The translations under genes and the position numbers were made by a program. This document shows, in pieces, positions 22,113 to 30,799 of a stretch of DNA of 41,744 nucleotides; the stretch's first letter is position 1, and each line of letters opens with the position of its first letter. This DNA comes from Gloeomargaritaceae cyanobacterium C42_A2020_066 (GTDB lineage: Bacteria; Cyanobacteriota; Cyanobacteriia; Gloeomargaritales; Gloeomargaritaceae). Location: positions 1 to 41,744 of the forward strand of contig JACYLR010000035.1 of NCBI GenBank assembly GCA_015272465.1, in the 5' to 3' direction. The notes beneath the pieces are model-generated. The model had not been told where the DNA came from. It did not search any database and was given only the letters and a program-made list of their open reading frames with translations.

Positions 22113-23036
22113 ATGCTGTCGGAACAGCAACAGAAGATTTTGGTGTACTTCATCGAAGAATCCCGGGAACACCTCCAGACCTTGGAGCAGGGATTGATGA
22201 ACCTCCAAGTCAATTCCACCGACGGCGAATTGATTAATGAGCTATTCCGGGCCGCCCACTCCATCAAGGGGGGGGCCGCCATGCTCGGCTTTGACAGCAT
22301 CCGCCGCACCGCCCACCGCCTCGAGGATTCCCTCAAGGTGCTGCGGGAACGGTCGATCACGGTTGACCAGCGCCTCGAAAGCCTCTTCCTCCAAGGCTTC
22401 GATTTGCTCCAAGACTTGGTCGATCAACTGCAAAAGCGCGGCAGCCTCGATGAGGAAGCAGCCCAGGCGGTGCTCCAGCGCTCCGAGCCCATTTTTGCGG
22501 AATTGGCGAAGGAATTGAGTGGGGAGGCACCTGCCGAAGCGGTGGCTGCCCCCGCCGCCCTCACCCACGCTGATATCGCGCCTCAGGTGTTGTTGCTGCT
22601 CCGGCAAATGCTGGATTTGTTCCGCCAGGGTGACAGTGCAACCCACCGCCAGCAATTACTGGATATCACTGAGCAACTAGCCCATGTGGGCCAGGGCATT
22701 GATTCTTGGCAAACCCTGGTGGGTCAAGTGCGAACCGCCATCGGCCTGCCTCAGAACAGTTTTGCTGCCCTAGCCAAGGTTTGCCTGCAAGACCTGAAGC
22801 AGGGGGCAGACCTGATCCAGGCCGGCCGGCCGGCCGAGGCGATCGCCAGTGCCCAACTGGCTCGGCTGGCGGCCGGGGCCGGGGGTACTATTCCGCCCCA
22901 AGCGCTGGCAGCAACCATCACCATTCCCACGGATCCCCAAGCGGCAGCAGACGCCCTACTCAAGGCCCTGGATACCCCCCGTCTCACCCAACTGGCCAAA
23001 CTCTTGGTGCAGGCCCTCAAGCAGCGCAGTGTCTAG
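22113..23036 (+). CDS. Hpt (histidine phosphotransfer) domain protein
   Basis: A 307-residue protein whose first 105 residues form an Hpt domain with the phosphoaccepting histidine H49 in AAHSIKGGAAMLG. This matches the P1 domain of CheA and other phosphorelay proteins. The remainder is helical, Ala/Gln/Leu-rich and has no kinase or CheW domain, so it is a stand-alone relay protein or a CheA-like remnant. Part of the tail contains four overlapping GGCCGGCC units (22820-22835) coding AGRPAEA. A strong AAGGAG Shine-Dalgarno precedes the ATG. The partner kinase is unknown; two histidine kinases lie downstream at 25305 and 28856. Confidence 0.88.
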   Translation: MLSEQQQKILVYFIEESREHLQTLEQGLMNLQVNSTDGELINELFRAAHSIKGGAAMLGFDSIRRTAHRLEDSLKVLRERSITVDQRLESLFLQGFDLLQDLVDQLQKRGSLDEEAAQAVLQRSEPIFAELAKELSGEAPAEAVAAPAALTHADIAPQVLLLLRQMLDLFRQGDSATHRQQLLDITEQLAHVGQGIDSWQTLVGQVRTAIGLPQNSFAALAKVCLQDLKQGADLIQAGRPAEAIASAQLARLAAGAGGTIPPQALAATITIPTDPQAAADALLKALDTPRLTQLAKLLVQALKQRSV

Positions 23037-23172: not shown

Positions 23173-24012
23173 ATGTCCTCTCCAGAACCGGCTCTTCTGG
23201 CCCTTGACTTTGATGGGGTGCTCTGCGACGGCCGGCCGGAGTATTTTGCCACCACCTGTCTGGCCTACCGGGAACTGTGGCCGGAGATTGGCTGCGGTGC
23301 CCATCTGGATGCCTTTCGGGACGCTTTCTATGCCTGGCGGCCGGCCGTAGCCCACGGTTGGGAGATGCCCCTGCTTCTCCACGGCCTAGTGACGGGCGCT
23401 TTGACCGACGCTGAACCCGTATCGACACACACCTGGGGCACCCACCGGCCAACCCTCTTAGCCGAGAGCCGCTCCACACCGGCCGAGTTGGGAGGACTTG
23501 TCGATGGGGTCAGGGATGACTGGATTGAGCGGGACTTGCCCGATTGGCTGGGCCACCACAACTTCTACCCCGGTGTTGTGCCTCGCCTCCAGACCTGGTT
23601 AGCCCAGGGCAGCCCCCAACTGGCCATCCTCACCACCAAGGCCGGCCGGTTTGTCCAGCAACTCTTCGAGGCCGCCGACGTGGATTTTCCCACAACCTGG
23701 ATCTGGGGACGGGAGGCCGGCCGACCCAAAGTCACCCTATTGGCCGAGCTAGTGGCGCAGGGTCATGCTCCCCTGTGGTTTGTGGAGGACTACCGGCCCA
23801 CCCTCGACCGCGTTACCCAGACGCCCGGACTGGAAACGGTATGCCTCTTCCTAGCGACTTGGGGCTACAACACCCCCGCCGCTGCTGCCGAGTTGGGCAC
23901 CATTCAACCCTTAACTCTGAACCACTGGCACCTTGACCTCAAGGATTGGCGGACACCAGCGGCTTCACCTGCATCCGCACCAGCACCACCGTCACATTGT
24001 CGTGGCCGTTGA
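23173..24012 (+). CDS. HAD-family hydrolase
   Basis: A 279-residue haloacid-dehalogenase-like phosphatase. Motif I is LDFDGVLCDG (nucleophile D12, acid/base D14), motif II is in AILTTKAG, the motif III lysine is in GRPK, and motif IV is VEDYRPTLD. A large helical cap domain lies between motifs I and II (about 25-140). The substrate is unknown. The gene starts nine bases after tRNA-Gln and may be transcribed with it. Its last 74 bases overlap the 3' end of the convergent PP2C gene; the tail coded there is Ala/Pro-rich and unlike the conserved fold, so it is probably an overprinted extension. Confidence 0.82.
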   Translation: MSSPEPALLALDFDGVLCDGRPEYFATTCLAYRELWPEIGCGAHLDAFRDAFYAWRPAVAHGWEMPLLLHGLVTGALTDAEPVSTHTWGTHRPTLLAESRSTPAELGGLVDGVRDDWIERDLPDWLGHHNFYPGVVPRLQTWLAQGSPQLAILTTKAGRFVQQLFEAADVDFPTTWIWGREAGRPKVTLLAELVAQGHAPLWFVEDYRPTLDRVTQTPGLETVCLFLATWGYNTPAAAAELGTIQPLTLNHWHLDLKDWRTPAASPASAPAPPSHCRGR

Positions 24013-24859
24013 TCGTATTCGCCACGTCAATCAACTGCTTGCAGCCCTCCTGGAGATAGGCGAGACCAGCCTGGGGTACAAGCAAGGGTTTGAGGTGGGT
24101 CGCACAACAGCTTTCCACCAATTCATTGTCCGTCATGCCATCCGAAGCAAGCAGGAAGAGGGTGTCTTCCACCACCGTCAGGTATTGGATGTGGATGTCT
24201 AAATCCCGCTTGTGGCGAGGGCCGAGGGCCTGGGTCAGTTGGTAGGCGTCGGGACGACTGTAGGCCGTCTTGGGATCAACCCCCTGCTGGATATGCCACT
24301 GCCCCACCTCATGGTCGAGGGTGACCTGCACCAGGCCCTCCGACTCCGTTAACCGATAGAGACGACTATCCCCGATGTGGGTAATCGCCACCCGATTGTC
24401 CTGCACCAAGGCCAGCACCAGGGTCGTGCCCATGCGGGACTTCCCGTGGCGCGCCTCACCCTCATTGCGTTCGTAGATCGCTTGATTAGCCAACTCCACG
24501 CCCGCCTGAATCAGTTCAGGACTAGGCAGATTGGTCTGCTCCTTGTACAGCCATTCCTGCTGTAGAAATGCTCCCAACCGATGGGTGGCTAATTGGCTGG
24601 CCTCATCCCCGCCGGCGTGACCACCCATGCCATCACAGAGAATGTACAACCCCTTTCCCCAAACCTGATCCCCCTGGGGTGTGATCCGCCGCTCGGTACA
24701 GGTTTGCACCAGAAAGTAGTCCTGGTTGTACTCTCGCTGCATCCCCACATCGGTTTGGGCGACAGCTTCCAGGGCTTGAAGCCGCACCGGAGGAATTGTC
24801 GGCGTCAGTTCAACGGTGGGATCAACGGCAGTCACATCAGTGGAAGGGGGAGATTGCAT
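23939..24859 (-). CDS. PP2C-family serine/threonine phosphatase
   Basis: Metal-dependent phosphatase of the PPM/PP2C class, 306 residues. Metal-binding motifs are REYNQD (D47), CDGMGGHAGGDEAS (D76), LLASDGMTD and HDNVTVVL; GTTLVLAL and HIGDSRLYR also match. About 30 N-terminal residues before the domain are Pro/Thr-rich and could be phosphorylated or flexible. It is the last gene of a minus-strand set: histidine kinase, FHA protein (2-base gap), then PP2C (44-base gap). An FHA protein beside a PP2C phosphatase usually points to Ser/Thr phosphorylation signalling, but no Ser/Thr kinase is encoded here. Confidence 0.93.
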   Translation of the reverse strand: MQSPPSTDVTAVDPTVELTPTIPPVRLQALEAVAQTDVGMQREYNQDYFLVQTCTERRITPQGDQVWGKGLYILCDGMGGHAGGDEASQLATHRLGAFLQQEWLYKEQTNLPSPELIQAGVELANQAIYERNEGEARHGKSRMGTTLVLALVQDNRVAITHIGDSRLYRLTESEGLVQVTLDHEVGQWHIQQGVDPKTAYSRPDAYQLTQALGPRHKRDLDIHIQYLTVVEDTLFLLASDGMTDNELVESCCATHLKPLLVPQAGLAYLQEGCKQLIDVANTINGHDNVTVVLVRMQVKPLVSANP

Positions 24860-24903
24860 AGGATTCCTACAAGCATAGCCTGGAGATTTTCCCAGTCCGG
24901 GGG

Positions 24904-25302
24904 TTAACCCGACTGAAATTCAAAAACCACGGGCTGGTCACTGCCCAGGGCAATGGCATCACCAGCGGTCAGGGGTTTGCGCTCACCCGGCCAGAGACGC
25001 TGACCATTGAGGTAAGTGCCGTTGGTACTGCCCATATCCTCAAGGAGGGGGGGGGGTGGCACCAGCAGAATACGAGCGTGCACCCGAGACACAGCGGCGG
25101 CTTCGGGGAACTCCGACAGGTCAATGTCGGGGGGCAGATGGGTATTGGGTTTTCCGAGGAGGACTAGGTTGCGGTGCTCCGGCAGGGGGATAATTCGTCC
25201 GGATGGGCGATGAATCAACCGTGGGTGGGCCGGTGCCGGCCGGTCGGCGGAAGTCACCATGGGACAGACCGCGTTACAGCAGCCGCAGGGAATTGGTTTC
25301 AT
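24904..25302 (-). CDS. FHA-domain protein
   Basis: A 132-residue protein that is mostly one forkhead-associated domain, which binds phosphothreonine peptides. Core motifs are LLGKPN (strand with the GR-type turn), VSRVHARI (S-x-x-H) and GSTNGTYLNGQRL. The N-terminus has a cysteine cluster (CGCC, then C13) that may hold a metal. The ATG at 25302 is two bases beyond the stop of the upstream histidine kinase, so coupled translation supports this start over the ATG at 25260. Its likely job is to recruit a phosphorylated partner, perhaps the PP2C target; this is inference from order. Confidence 0.88.
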   Translation of the reverse strand: MKPIPCGCCNAVCPMVTSADRPAPAHPRLIHRPSGRIIPLPEHRNLVLLGKPNTHLPPDIDLSEFPEAAAVSRVHARILLVPPPPLLEDMGSTNGTYLNGQRLWPGERKPLTAGDAIALGSDQPVVFEFQSG

Positions 25303-25304
25303 TA

Positions 25305-27596
25305 TTACCGGCTGGGTTCAATTTGACCACGGCCGGCCGGGGCGGGAGCGGGCAAATCCGAGGTCATGGGGAGGTGCAGTGAGAAACAGGTTACCTGGTT
25401 GCTGCTGCGGGCCTCAATAGTTCCCCCCAAGTGGGTGACCAGACGACGGACTAGGGCCAAGCCCAAACCCATCCCACTGTATTGCCAGGGATCTCGACGG
25501 GGAATACGGTAGAAACGCTCGAAGATGAGGGGCAACTCTTCTGGGGAAATCTCGACCCCTGTATTGCTGACGGTCAGGGTAAGTTCATCCTGGCCGGCCG
25601 TGGCCTCTAGGGTAATGGCCTGGTCACGGGGAGTGTATTTGCAGGCATTGGTCAGTAGTTCCGTCAGGACGCGTTCCAGACTAAAGGGATGGGTACGCAG
25701 GGGGGGTAAATCCGGGTCAATCTGATAGCGAAGGCGCTGGCTTTGGCGGTCAGCTTGGGTGCGAAAACGCTCCAGCAACGGGGGCAACCAGTCCTGGAGA
25801 ATCACAGTGGTTTGGTGGAGCGGCTCAGCGCCCGTTTCCAGGTGCCGCAGGTTGAGCAAATCCTGGATCAGGTTAGCCTCGCGGTGATATTCCGCCTCCA
25901 AAATGTCCAGGTACTGGCCCAGCCGCTGGCCCGCATCGGCCGCCAAACTCCGGCCGGGACGAATCTGGAGCCGCAGCATTTTGAGGGCCATTTTCATGTT
26001 GGAGAGGGGAGTGCGCAACTCGTGGGACACAGAACTGAGAAAGTCATCCTTGAGCCGACTCAGGCGTTCGAGGGCCACGACCTGGGCCTGGGCCGCCTGG
26101 TACAGTCGGGCTTGCCGAATGGCGATAGCACACTGGCTGGCAACCTGGGGGATCAAGGCCATTAGGAGGGCTCGCCCCGGCCGGCCGGCCGTCACCACCC
26201 CCAGTTCACCCAAAACGCCTTGATCATCTCGAATCGGATGAATCCATAGTTCACCCTCAGGACCCCTAAGGACTTGATAGGCCAGGGGCAGCACCTCGAC
26301 CGGGGGCGCCAACCACGGGGTACCCGCCAGAAGGGGTTGATAAAACGCCGGATAGTCAGCGAGGGTGAGCCGGAGACCCAAGTGGGTGGGGCCGGCCGGC
26401 CCTAGATATTCGTAGGCCACCGTCGCCGCAGTCTGGCGGTCATCGTAGAGGGCAGCCCAGCAGTAGTCAGTGCCCAGGGCTTGCCCCAGTTCTTGGATAG
26501 CAGTCTGGAGGATTTGGGCTTCGTCGAGACTATCCCGCACCCGATCGGTCACTGCCTTCAGCACCTGAGCACAGTCGAGGGCTTCCTGGAGTTCTGCCGT
26601 CCGCTCCCTGACCTGGGCCTCCAAGCTCGTATTGAGGGTCTGAAGCTGGGCATAGAGTTGGGCCTGATCAATAGCAATGCCCAGTTGGAGGGCAAGCTGC
26701 TCTAACAACTCCACATCCTGAAGCTGCCAGGCCCGCAGCCCTTTGCATTGATGGGCCACCAACAGCCCCCACAAATCCTGCTGCTGGAGCACGGGCACCA
26801 CCAGACTGCTGCGCACCCGCCACTCATCCAGTTGCCGCACCTGGCCCGCCTCCAGATCCGACTGAAAAATATCGGGAATTACCTGGGCTTGCCCCTGGCG
26901 CAAGGACTCCAAATGCTGGGGCGCCACACCGAAGTAGCCCATATTCTGTCCCAGGAGCGAAGAGCAGTCCGAGGCGGTGGCCTCTACCACCACTGTGCCC
27001 CCCAGGCCCTCAAAGCGGTGGATCATCACCCGATCCGCGTGCAGAAAGCACCGCACCTCAGTGACCGTGGTTTCCAGAATGGTTTGCAAGTCCAAAGACT
27101 GACGGATGCCGGCAGCCATGCGCCGGACAATCCGTTCCCGTTCCGCCTGTTCCCGCAGACTGTCCTCTAGGCGACGGTGGCGGGTGACATCCCGGCAGGT
27201 GACAATCAGGCCGCGTATTTGAGGTGGATGGCCCAGGGGAGCCAGGGTAGCTGAAAGGTAGTATTCACAGCCCGACCGACTGAGCAGTAACGTATCCCTG
27301 GGTAACCCCGTCACCACGCCCTCCCGCAGCACCCGTCCCAGCAACCCCTCAACAGGCTGATGGGTGCGGGCATTGACAAGGCATAGCACCTGGAAGAGGG
27401 GCTGTCCCACGGCCTCCTCTGCACTCCAGCCAGTCAATTGCTCCGCAGCCTGGTTCATCACCCAAACCCGGCAATTCAGGTCAGTGAGGATCACCCCATC
27501 CCCAATACTGCCCAGCACTGTGTGCAGCCACGCCTGTTCCGTTGGGCTGGTGATCTGGGGGAGGAGGTCGGGAGGAAGCGAATCTGGGGAAACCAT
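25305..27596 (-). CDS. Sensor histidine kinase with PAS and two GAF domains
   Basis: A 763-residue soluble kinase with no membrane segment. Domains in order: PAS (about 20-145), GAF (about 165-320), a short coiled coil, a second GAF-like domain (about 345-500), HisKA with H525 in SSVSHELRTPL, and HATPase. The N box is ELLTNACKYTP. The G1 box is SNTGVEI, a variant like that of CusS, and the G2 box is GMGLGLAL. The first GAF resembles phytochrome/cyanobacteriochrome GAFs (DRVMIHRF, VRSSLVVPVL) but lacks the CH chromophore cysteine, so bilin binding is unlikely. No response regulator is adjacent. It heads the kinase-FHA-PP2C set. Confidence 0.92.
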   Translation of the reverse strand: MVSPDSLPPDLLPQITSPTEQAWLHTVLGSIGDGVILTDLNCRVWVMNQAAEQLTGWSAEEAVGQPLFQVLCLVNARTHQPVEGLLGRVLREGVVTGLPRDTLLLSRSGCEYYLSATLAPLGHPPQIRGLIVTCRDVTRHRRLEDSLREQAERERIVRRMAAGIRQSLDLQTILETTVTEVRCFLHADRVMIHRFEGLGGTVVVEATASDCSSLLGQNMGYFGVAPQHLESLRQGQAQVIPDIFQSDLEAGQVRQLDEWRVRSSLVVPVLQQQDLWGLLVAHQCKGLRAWQLQDVELLEQLALQLGIAIDQAQLYAQLQTLNTSLEAQVRERTAELQEALDCAQVLKAVTDRVRDSLDEAQILQTAIQELGQALGTDYCWAALYDDRQTAATVAYEYLGPAGPTHLGLRLTLADYPAFYQPLLAGTPWLAPPVEVLPLAYQVLRGPEGELWIHPIRDDQGVLGELGVVTAGRPGRALLMALIPQVASQCAIAIRQARLYQAAQAQVVALERLSRLKDDFLSSVSHELRTPLSNMKMALKMLRLQIRPGRSLAADAGQRLGQYLDILEAEYHREANLIQDLLNLRHLETGAEPLHQTTVILQDWLPPLLERFRTQADRQSQRLRYQIDPDLPPLRTHPFSLERVLTELLTNACKYTPRDQAITLEATAGQDELTLTVSNTGVEISPEELPLIFERFYRIPRRDPWQYSGMGLGLALVRRLVTHLGGTIEARSSNQVTCFSLHLPMTSDLPAPAPAGRGQIEPSR

Positions 27597-27622
27597 GGGC
27601 TATCTCCATGCCCTCCAGCCCC

Positions 27623-27663
27623 ATTGTTCCAAAGTTTGTCGAGCAAAGGGTACTAAGTCTTAC
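27623..27663 (-). promoter_or_regulatory. Candidate NtcA-type promoter of the kinase-FHA-PP2C set
   Basis: Bases 27650-27663 match the NtcA consensus GTA-N8-TAC exactly. On the minus strand the -10-like AACAAT (27628-27623) follows after 21 bases, close to the about 22 expected for an NtcA-activated class II promoter. It lies 53 bases upstream of the kinase ATG in non-coding DNA. About ten chance matches to this 6-base consensus are expected in a window this size. Confidence 0.4.
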
Positions 27664-28143: not shown

Positions 28144-28440
28144 TTAGCTGCCGTAGTAGAAGGCGACTTCCTTAGGTTTGAGGGGGGCAAAGCCCGCCGC
28201 GACCAATTCGGCATCCAACTCAGCCTGGGGTAGATGCTTCGCGCCGATGCGCACAATCCGAGACCGCATCGTGTTACTGACCCCGCTCCGTTGCCGGCCG
28301 GCCTCCAAGCCCATGACTCGCTGGTAAAGGGCCAGCTTGGCCGGGGGGATGGGGCTGCCGTCAAAATCAATACCCTGGGCAATCGCCCCATCGACTGCAT
28401 CGGCGCCTGTGGTGGTGCCAGCGGTTGTTTCACCGACCAT
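28144..28440 (-). CDS. Small conserved cyanobacterial protein (DUF4090-like)
   Basis: A 98-residue protein with segments GADAVDGAIAQGIDFDG, RSGVSNTMRSRIVRIGAKH and a C-terminus ending VAFYYGS. I recognise it as a small family confined to cyanobacteria, annotated as DUF4090 to my memory; no function is known. The start is the ATG at 28440, preceded by GAGGG. A TTG at 28464 is also in frame but less likely. There is no signal peptide or membrane segment. It diverges from the small gene at 28543. Confidence 0.75.
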   Translation of the reverse strand: MVGETTAGTTTGADAVDGAIAQGIDFDGSPIPPAKLALYQRVMGLEAGRQRSGVSNTMRSRIVRIGAKHLPQAELDAELVAAGFAPLKPKEVAFYYGS

Positions 28441-28542
28441 TTCACTGCCCTCAACCCAACACAAGCATTTTACCAGGGGGCTGATCCTGGCCGCCGCCGC
28501 CCTCCATAATGGAATTAGACCCTCCTCGCCTCACCGCCAGCC

Positions 28543-28770: not shown

Positions 28771-28855
28771 GTGAGGTCGGCGCTATGGCCCAGGCCCTGG
28801 GAAGGGTACAGTTACACTTAGGGTTCGCCCCGGCCGTCCCTCCCCTGCGCCTGTG

Positions 28856-30799
28856 ATGCGCGTTTTCCCCTCGCTGCTTCAGGACTTGCTCCAGGTGGTA
28901 CCCCACCTGCGCCCGCAACTATACTTCAAATCCTCCCTGACGGCCCTTTCCCATGCCATGGAGGATCAGGTATTTACCAGCGCCGCGCCGCCGTTGGTAA
29001 TTGCCAACTTTCAGCGGGAGCGCTATTACCGCCAAGAAACCCGCCGCTATCGCCAGATTGCCCGCCACAGCAACCAGGTTTATGTGCTGGCAGCACCGGA
29101 GGCGGAGTTTGGCCAGGTGCCAGAACCCTACGAAACGATTGCATTTACCCCCGACGATGCCCTCGCCCAAGAGTGGCACTTGGTGGTGCTGGGGCCAGGC
29201 ATGGCGGCCTCCCTGGTCTGCCGAGAAAAACCCACCGAACAGCCCCTAATGGATCAGAGCCGGCGCTTTGAGGGCATCTGGACGTTTGATCCCCAAGTGA
29301 GTGCTCAAGTGGCCCTTTTGCTGCTGGCGCGCATCGGCCATTACCGTCCTGACCTTGCTGCAAAACTGACGGCTGCCCAGACAACTTACCAGCTCACCCA
29401 GATGCCGGCGGCCGGCCGGCCGAGCCTCGACCCACAGCCCTTTGTCGAGCGGCTCGTGACCTACCTCCAGGCCAGCCAGTACCGGGTTCTGAAGGGCTAT
29501 CGCGCCCTGAGTGCCAAGGAACGGCGGGAACGGTTGGTAAACCGGATTACGACCGCGATCCGCAGCTCTCTCAATCCCCAAGCGATCCTGACCGTCGCCG
29601 TTCAGGAACTGGGGCAAGCCTTCCCCGAAAGTCGTTGTCTGGTTTACCGCTGCCGGGCTAACTTGGCCAGCACCGTGATTGAGCATGAGTACGTCAACCC
29701 CGGTGTCTCCAGCCTGCGGGGCCAGAGTTGGGACTTGGAACACCACCCCCTGTTTCGCCAAGCGCTCACCCAGGATCAGGTCGCGGCCATCAGTGATGTC
29801 ACCCGGTCACCGGAACTGGCTGGTTTCCAGGCTCAGGTAGGCCAGTGGGGTATTCGCTCCTGGCTCGTAGCACCCGTGGTCTACCAGGACAGCCTGCTGG
29901 GCATGGTGGAACTGCACCACTGCGGCGCGCAGCCCTACCTCTGGCGGGATGAGGATCTGGCCTTGGTCACGGACGTAGTTCTCCAAATTGGGGTGGCCCT
30001 CATCCAGGCCCAAGCCTACACCCAAATTCAGGAGTTGAACCTGCAACTGGAGGCCCTGGACCGTACCCGCACCAACCTAATTGCGATCATCGGCCACGAA
30101 CTGCGCACGCCCCTATCTACGGTTCAGGTCTGTCTGGAGAGTTTCGCCAGTGACCCCGATATGCCCGCCGCCCCGCGCCAAGAGATGCTGGCCACGGCCA
30201 TGCAGGACACGGAACGGCTCCACAAGCTGATCCAGGACTTCCTCACCCTATCGCGCCTAGAAAGTGGGCGAGTCCGTTGGCATCTTGAGCCGATTACACT
30301 TCAGGAATGCGTGGATCTGGCCCTCAGTAGCCTGCGCGCCCGCCGCCACCCCGAAACCCTGCCCAAGCTCAGCCTCCAACTCCCCGAAGGCTTGCCCCTG
30401 ATTCGGACGGATGGGGAGGGCATTGTCGAGGTACTGGCCAAGTTGCTGGACAATGCCTGCAAGTTTACGGGACCGGAGGGGGTGATCACGATCCAGGCCG
30501 GCCGGCGGGAAGCGCAAATGCTAGAGGTGGTGGTCAGCGACACGGGCCGGGGGATTGAACCGAGTCAGTTGGAGGCGGTTTTTGACCGGTTCTACCAAGA
30601 GGAAAATGCCCTGCGGCGCACGGTGGGTGGAACGGGATTGGGGCTGGCCATTTGTCGGCAGATCATCGAAGGCTTAGGGGGGCGAATTTGGGCTTCTTCC
30701 CAGGGGCGCGGGCAGGGCAGCCAGTTTCACTTCACCGTACCCTTGGTGGCTGAAACCCTGGGGGACGGCCGGCCGACTCCCCTAGAGTACTCTGGGTGA
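28856..30799 (+). CDS. Sensor histidine kinase with DICT and GAF domains
   Basis: A 647-residue soluble kinase. The N-terminal 160 residues read as a DICT sensory domain (HAMEDQVF, PLVIANFQRERYYRQE, YVLAAPEAEFG, LVVLGPGMAASLVCRE), a domain mostly found in cyanobacterial diguanylate cyclases and two-component proteins. A GAF domain follows (about 225-390), then HisKA with H414 in IIGHELRTPL, and HATPase with LLDNACKFTG, SDTGRGIEPSQ and GTGLGLAICRQI. All catalytic boxes look intact. The start is the ATG at 28856; a GTG immediately before it is possible. No cognate response regulator is adjacent. The signal sensed is unknown. Confidence 0.9.
   Translation: MRVFPSLLQDLLQVVPHLRPQLYFKSSLTALSHAMEDQVFTSAAPPLVIANFQRERYYRQETRRYRQIARHSNQVYVLAAPEAEFGQVPEPYETIAFTPDDALAQEWHLVVLGPGMAASLVCREKPTEQPLMDQSRRFEGIWTFDPQVSAQVALLLLARIGHYRPDLAAKLTAAQTTYQLTQMPAAGRPSLDPQPFVERLVTYLQASQYRVLKGYRALSAKERRERLVNRITTAIRSSLNPQAILTVAVQELGQAFPESRCLVYRCRANLASTVIEHEYVNPGVSSLRGQSWDLEHHPLFRQALTQDQVAAISDVTRSPELAGFQAQVGQWGIRSWLVAPVVYQDSLLGMVELHHCGAQPYLWRDEDLALVTDVVLQIGVALIQAQAYTQIQELNLQLEALDRTRTNLIAIIGHELRTPLSTVQVCLESFASDPDMPAAPRQEMLATAMQDTERLHKLIQDFLTLSRLESGRVRWHLEPITLQECVDLALSSLRARRHPETLPKLSLQLPEGLPLIRTDGEGIVEVLAKLLDNACKFTGPEGVITIQAGRREAQMLEVVVSDTGRGIEPSQLEAVFDRFYQEENALRRTVGGTGLGLAICRQIIEGLGGRIWASSQGRGQGSQFHFTVPLVAETLGDGRPTPLEYSG

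Follow-up and report, generated by a model that had tools for sequence, protein, structure and literature searches.

The window, i.e. the whole stretch of 41,744 nucleotides that was analysed (one contig of Gloeomargaritaceae cyanobacterium C42_A2020_066), carries on its minus strand three co-directional genes, which encode a histidine kinase (HK), an FHA protein and a PP2C phosphatase and are separated by gaps of 2 bases (HK-FHA) and 44 bases (FHA-PP2C). This set, with its positions, common direction and spacing, had been described in an earlier note on the same DNA, and both the open reading frames and the Pfam matches agree with that description (Table 1). The domains that make it a two-component sensor joined with a phosphothreonine reader and a Ser/Thr phosphatase all score over the Pfam cut-offs. 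The further statement that no response regulator or Ser/Thr kinase lies alongside also holds: a Pfam scan of eight proteins (the trio and five neighbours) returned no Response_reg or Pkinase domain, and hence no response regulator beside the HK.

Table 1. Features of the HK-FHA-PP2C cassette and of the region upstream of it (positions in the window; aa, residues of the encoded protein).
Feature	Position	Strand	Basis
Histidine kinase (HK), cassette gene 1, PAS-GAF-GAF-HisKA-HATPase_c, 763 aa	25305..27596	-	ORF + Pfam
PAS fold of HK (aa 30-142)	27171..27509	-	PF08448 2.7e-11
First GAF of HK (aa 169-309)	26670..27092	-	PF01590 3e-25; GAF_2 reports two stretches
HisKA of HK with SHELRTP (aa 516-589)	25830..26051	-	PF00512 9.3e-12
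HATPase_c of HK (aa 639-745), G1 box NTGVEI	25362..25682	-	PF02518 5.2e-24
FHA protein, cassette gene 2, 132 aa	24904..25302	-	ORF + Pfam
FHA domain, S72 R73 H75 and N94 G95 invariant	24943..25131	-	PF00498 1.2e-12, 48.5 bits (cut-off 20.7)
PP2C phosphatase, cassette gene 3, 306 aa	23939..24859	-	ORF + Pfam
GTA-N8-TAC palindrome upstream of HK start, judged a chance match	27650-27663	-	Pattern search

At its 3′ end the PP2C gene overlaps tail to tail with a HAD-like ORF of the plus strand (23173-24012), the two sharing 74 bases (23939-24012), and an Hpt-domain protein is encoded on the opposite strand at 22113-23036 (+), some 0.9 kb past the cassette's 3′ end. On the other side, a second histidine kinase gene (DICT, CHASE6_C, GAF, HisKA, HATPase) at 28853-30799 (+) is divergent from the cassette, at a distance of about 1.2 kb upstream of its HK.

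The cassette HK shows no clear membrane helix by hydropathy (best 19-residue mean 1.51) and is apparently a soluble protein. The G1 box of histidine kinases normally reads DxGxG; in the subfamily of this HK the Asp is found in none of the 59 rows that could be read and is replaced by Asn, rarely by Tyr or Ile (40 of the 99 rows were unread by the pattern). In the FHA protein, the phosphothreonine-binding residues S72, H75 and N94 are invariant in an 18-sequence alignment, as is the GK (G50 K51) that replaces the GR motif, and an AlphaFold2 model of the protein has a mean pLDDT of 84.6. The protein does not have the N-terminal double zinc ribbon found in most of its orthologues (the corresponding pattern is present in 40 of the 54 assessed). 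Four Cys do occur in its first 13 residues (6, 8, 9 and 13, with one CxxC; 25264-25287 on the minus strand), possibly a remnant of the zinc ribbon; in the other genus of the family, FHA proteins start without such Cys.

The third protein matches PP2C_2 (43.4 bits, Pfam cut-off 24) and NCBIfam PRK14559 (404.9 bits, cut-off 374), the latter only over profile positions 360-638 of 642, and its motif residues N45 D47, D76 G77 M78 G79 G80, S239 D240 G241 and D287 N288 are invariant in a 20-sequence alignment. What is missing is the N-terminal part of PRK14559, about 350 aa with the double zinc ribbon and a kinase-like region. Upstream of the start codon only 20 aa of open frame were found, with no two-CxxC pattern, and this zinc-ribbon pattern is absent from the PP2Cs of all seven family relatives as well, which like the window PP2C have neither the zinc ribbon nor the kinase-like region. 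Long proteins prevail in the phylum, of which 244 genomes were sampled: 72 of 82 PP2C orthologues lie in open frames of 534-829 aa (82 of the 92 genomes with a PP2C were used, those with a best place at E <= 3.1e-60, the weaker ones being left out). According to the available excerpt of one survey, PP2Cs with zinc-ribbon and DZR domains occur mainly in three phyla, Cyanobacteriota included (PMC12088040). The cyanobacterial GAF-PP2C HltA was considered as a relative and set aside: it is described in the excerpt available as SpoIIE-type Group II (PMC9430166), and the matches of the window PP2C are instead to PP2C_2/PP2C and the structure 2j82. The window genome encodes a second PP2C (G000:C64:826-3663, minus strand; L110), which combines a PP2C_2 domain with CxxC pairs close to the N-terminus and WD40 repeats at the C-terminus.

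The extra N-terminal part of the long PP2Cs opens with a double zinc ribbon, matched by PF12773 in L065. For the middle region, neither Pfam, run on 24 members (best E 0.013), nor a PDB profile search (best E 0.079) gave anything significant. A comparison by hhalign against the profile of an FHA-Ser/Thr kinase gave a probability of only 10.8% (E 0.0029), in a register that puts SLLELsNL over the kinase loop HRDIKPANL, with the catalytic Asp missing. An AlphaFold2 model of the middle region of Leptolyngbya sp. PCC 6406 (L190:6909-7988; mean pLDDT 77.1, pTM 0.68) aligns to S. aureus PknB with a best Z of 12.1 and an rmsd of 3.9 over 204 residues (VIA-align), and all of the best 50 Foldseek rows obtained with it are kinases, at low TM-scores (0.21-0.38 by query length). 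Because the predicted fold is kinase-like and the Asp of the HRD motif is missing in the hhalign register, the middle region is likely a pseudokinase.

Conservation of the gene order in relatives had been proposed as a check on the cassette, and order and direction are indeed kept in all eight Gloeomargaritaceae genomes examined (two genera, window included), every one of which has the PP2C. Spacing varies among the eight, from 1 to 73 bases between HK and FHA genes and from overlaps up to the 44-base gap between FHA and PP2C genes; the two largest overlaps (76 and 140 bases) arise because the first possible start codon was taken. In the seven relatives the HK orthologues stand in the same place with 51-54% identity to the window HK, and PP2C identity is 61-63%. 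An alpha/beta-hydrolase gene directly follows the trio in five of the six other-genus relatives with sequence there (Pfam on four), and in the sixth (G241) other ORFs lie in between; a relative of this gene in the window genome sits on another contig. The compared stretches of the family relatives match window ORFs only in the trio and in a general ABC-transporter similarity, and the window and the genus g2 have no gene beside the trio in common there.

Adjacency of the FHA and PP2C genes is rare in the phylum. They are neighbours in five of the 79 genomes with both (the window genome, G085, G241, G008 and G027) and apart in 74, a count based on 84 of the 99 genomes with an FHA gene, the weaker ones being left out. 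Outside the family, the adjacency is seen in G008, in G027 (where an IS605-type transposase ORF lies between the two genes) and also in L150, L156 and L166, among 68 assessable named loci. The zinc ribbons of the two proteins are lost in a nested way. Both are kept in 26 and neither in 13 of the 45 genomes assessed for both, while only that of the PP2C is lost in six and only that of the FHA protein in none; the 45 come from 75 genomes, 30 with one partner not retrieved being left out, and the window, added separately, brings the ‘neither’ class to 14. Counted by hand at the family level, the three families that lost the FHA ribbon all fall within the six, out of 17, that lost the PP2C ribbon (chance 0.029), ribbons having been called with one regular expression. 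This pattern suggests that the FHA and PP2C proteins work together even where their genes are apart.

Elsewhere, the usual partner of this PP2C is an FHA-Ser/Thr kinase, whose gene lies within 3 kb of the PP2C gene and on the same strand in 41 of the 46 genomes with both. Among the named loci outside the family, the kinase gene is downstream of the PP2C gene in 62 of the 75 that could be assessed. No close copy of this kinase was found in the eight family genomes: the best match there is 1.5e-37 and covers the kinase domain only, whereas 40 of the 41 genomes in which it neighbours the PP2C have matches of 2.1e-114 or stronger. Because the pairing is so regular where both genes exist, the absence of a Ser/Thr kinase beside the window PP2C looks like a derived loss. 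The kinase may partly survive as a split remnant, as two free-standing FHA frames of the window genome resemble its FHA half (3.1e-17 and 3.1e-15). Compared with the pair of a PRK14559 zinc-ribbon PP2C and an FHA-Ser/Thr kinase, the cassette has an orthologous PP2C domain and likewise an FHA domain, but the neighbouring places are held in the window by the HK and a separate FHA protein. A cyanobacterial-type PP2C and FHA-kinase pair was also seen on a contig titled Tatlockia sp. (L151, a Legionellales MAG), where it is probably a binning contaminant.

Linkage between an HK and this PP2C recurs in cyanobacteria. Outside the family, the PP2C gene is preceded within 1 kb by a same-strand HK gene in 25 of the 68 loci with enough upstream sequence (gaps of 135-600 bases); 24 of these 25 belong to Nostocales, for which 35 loci were available. 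Four upstream HKs that were checked are PAS-HisKA-HATPase proteins with a kinase part 39-48% identical to that of the window HK. A same-strand triad of a PAS-containing HK, a long zinc-ribbon PP2C and an FHA-Ser/Thr kinase is seen in Nostocales (L159, L171, L180, L199 and 21 further loci in the upstream-HK survey), and in Richelia intracellularis (L221:536-2090) the HK that precedes the PP2C is divided between two ORFs. A further case of HK-PP2C linkage is found in G229, and in G008 a GAF-GAF HK is divergent from the FHA-PP2C genes. In seven of 45 genomes with both, the best match found to the core of the window HK sits no more than 6 kb from the PP2C (naive binomial 5e-12, a figure that ignores relatedness).

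In HK trees, the HKs of the family fall into a single clade and the PP2C-linked HKs of Nostocales, together with one unlinked row, into a second. The two are not joined in a quick 99-row tree or in a careful 63-row tree (36 of the 99 rows were dropped by hand, as long branches or near-duplicates), the separation in the latter resting on weak branches, and a single clade of family and Nostocales HKs was not rejected by the AU test (p 0.849). The search behind the quick tree was incomplete, because the AU test found a tree 29.85 log-likelihood units better. The linkage in the two groups may thus go back to one old event or to several.

We read the cassette as a family-conserved signalling operon in which an FHA-PP2C reader-eraser pair receives sensory input from the co-encoded HK, and we consider this reading somewhat better than an even bet (probability about 0.55). 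The three genes would be transcribed together. The PP2C would remove phosphate from Ser/Thr residues of target proteins, and the FHA protein, by binding phosphothreonine, would either bring the PP2C to these targets or compete for them. The HK would supply the pathway with sensory input, a task that elsewhere may fall to the zinc-ribbon/pseudokinase part of the PP2C and the neighbouring FHA-Ser/Thr kinase. Its route into the pathway might be a response regulator encoded elsewhere or direct contact, or the HK might be a substrate.

The main rival takes the three genes as neighbours without a shared pathway, the FHA-PP2C pair acting on Ser/Thr phosphorylation and the HK working with a response regulator encoded elsewhere, their order being kept through a shared promoter or slow rearrangement. 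We regard both this division of labour and this account of the order as possible but on balance doubtful. Orphan HKs are common in cyanobacteria, many members of the HK subfamily are found away from the PP2C (60 of the 99 tree rows), and an HK-FHA gap that varies from 1 to 73 bases would also suit genes that merely stand side by side. However, the order has persisted in eight of eight genomes and two genera despite PP2C identities of 61-63% and no other gene in common with g2 in the compared stretches, and the same PP2C has an HK upstream in 24 of 35 Nostocales loci; the seven of 45 genomes with the best HK-core match close to the PP2C point the same way, although they are related and not independent. 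A different explanation makes the HK itself the substrate: unlinked Ser/Thr kinases would phosphorylate it, the FHA protein would bind the phosphorylated HK and the PP2C would reset it. The available excerpt of PMC12088040 lists HKs among the targets of Ser/Thr kinases in bacteria, and the window genome has 13 Ser/Thr-kinase-like matches at E <= 1e-20, but we still think this explanation unlikely. Rather unlikely, too, is a stronger version of the preferred operon reading, with the HK directly controlling a Ser/Thr phosphatase and no response regulator between them; in Gloeomargaritaceae the HK and an FHA adaptor would then have replaced the zinc-ribbon/pseudokinase part and the partner kinase, and the Nostocales triads would be a second instance.

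The earlier note had suggested that nitrogen status may control the set, on the basis of a GTA-N8-TAC site, an NtcA consensus, with a ‘-10-like box’ 21 bases further on, and had called a nitrogen link plausible because PP2C proteins are known to act on PII in cyanobacteria. The palindrome is there and perfect, and an ssr1528-family (DUF4090) gene at 28144-28464 on the minus strand, two genes upstream of the cassette, belongs to a family named NsiR4-regulated by NCBIfam and was the only nitrogen-related neighbour seen. However, the palindrome occurs at chance density, with three in the window against 1.88 expected (three or more in 31 of 100 shuffles) and 217 in the 2.73-Mb genome against 466 for the pattern read backwards, which is a rough control. 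The rest of the promoter does not stand. NtcA-activated promoters have a -10 box TAN3T about 20-24 bases downstream of the operator; the proposed box reads AACAAT, which matches TATAAT at four of six positions and is without the leading T of TAN3T, and no TAN3T box was found at spacings of 18-26 downstream of the palindrome. Nor does GTAN8TAC occur in the 300 bases that precede the HK gene in any of the seven family relatives. As for PII, the window genome has a separate PphA-like gene (G000:C72), whose PP2C (250 aa) matches the solved structure 2j82, which we take to be tPphA, at 2.1e-83; the window PP2C reaches 8.8e-24 with this structure. An ABC1-kinase gene (PF03109, 1.7e-85) lies directly upstream of that gene, whereas the window PP2C follows the FHA gene and not a spkI-like ABC1 kinase gene; in Synechocystis, pphA follows spkI, according to the excerpt available (PMC11863333). 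PphA and the window PP2C have the PP2C fold and motifs in common but fall into different PP2C subfamilies. With a far better 2j82 match encoded after an ABC1-kinase gene, PII dephosphorylation is therefore most likely the job of the G000:C72 PP2C and not of the window PP2C. It is thus highly improbable that the cassette is under NtcA control, reads nitrogen status and acts on PII as a phosphatase; this reading is largely refuted, and no tested feature ties the cassette to nitrogen.

Likenesses to known systems are partial. The cassette resembles a split version of plant KAPP, an FHA-PP2C fusion for phosphorylation-dependent phosphatase recruitment, but FHA and PP2C are here encoded by two separate genes, in a prokaryote and with no receptor kinase. 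The mycobacterial FHA/PstP gene cluster includes the Ser/Thr kinases PknA and PknB, whereas the cassette has a histidine kinase. In both, the FHA reader and the phosphatase are encoded together (for the mycobacterial clustering, see the excerpt available of PMC1262709). The same excerpt reports FHA domains in cyanobacterial Ser/Thr kinases and the existence of dual Ser/Thr-histidine kinases (PMC1262709). As described there (PMC1262709), the HstK type also joins histidine-kinase and Ser/Thr signalling, but as one fused protein with a Ser/Thr kinase, while in the cassette the genes are separate, one of them coding for a phosphatase and none for a Ser/Thr kinase. Among the open-licence papers listed, none was found on the HK-FHA-PP2C trio or on the HK-PP2C-kinase triad. 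To our knowledge, the meeting of histidine-kinase and Ser/Thr phospho-signalling in cyanobacteria is poorly understood.

Few phosphatase partners have been assigned in cyanobacterial phospho-signalling, and the comparison gives a concrete module, made up of a double zinc ribbon-pseudokinase-PP2C protein, a zinc-ribbon-FHA protein, an FHA-Ser/Thr kinase and an HK. As it occurs naturally in a reduced form in some lineages and in an extended one in others, partnership and control are genetically testable. One of the lineages with a reduced module, the Gloeomargaritaceae, is the family regarded as nearest to plastids and has a culturable member.
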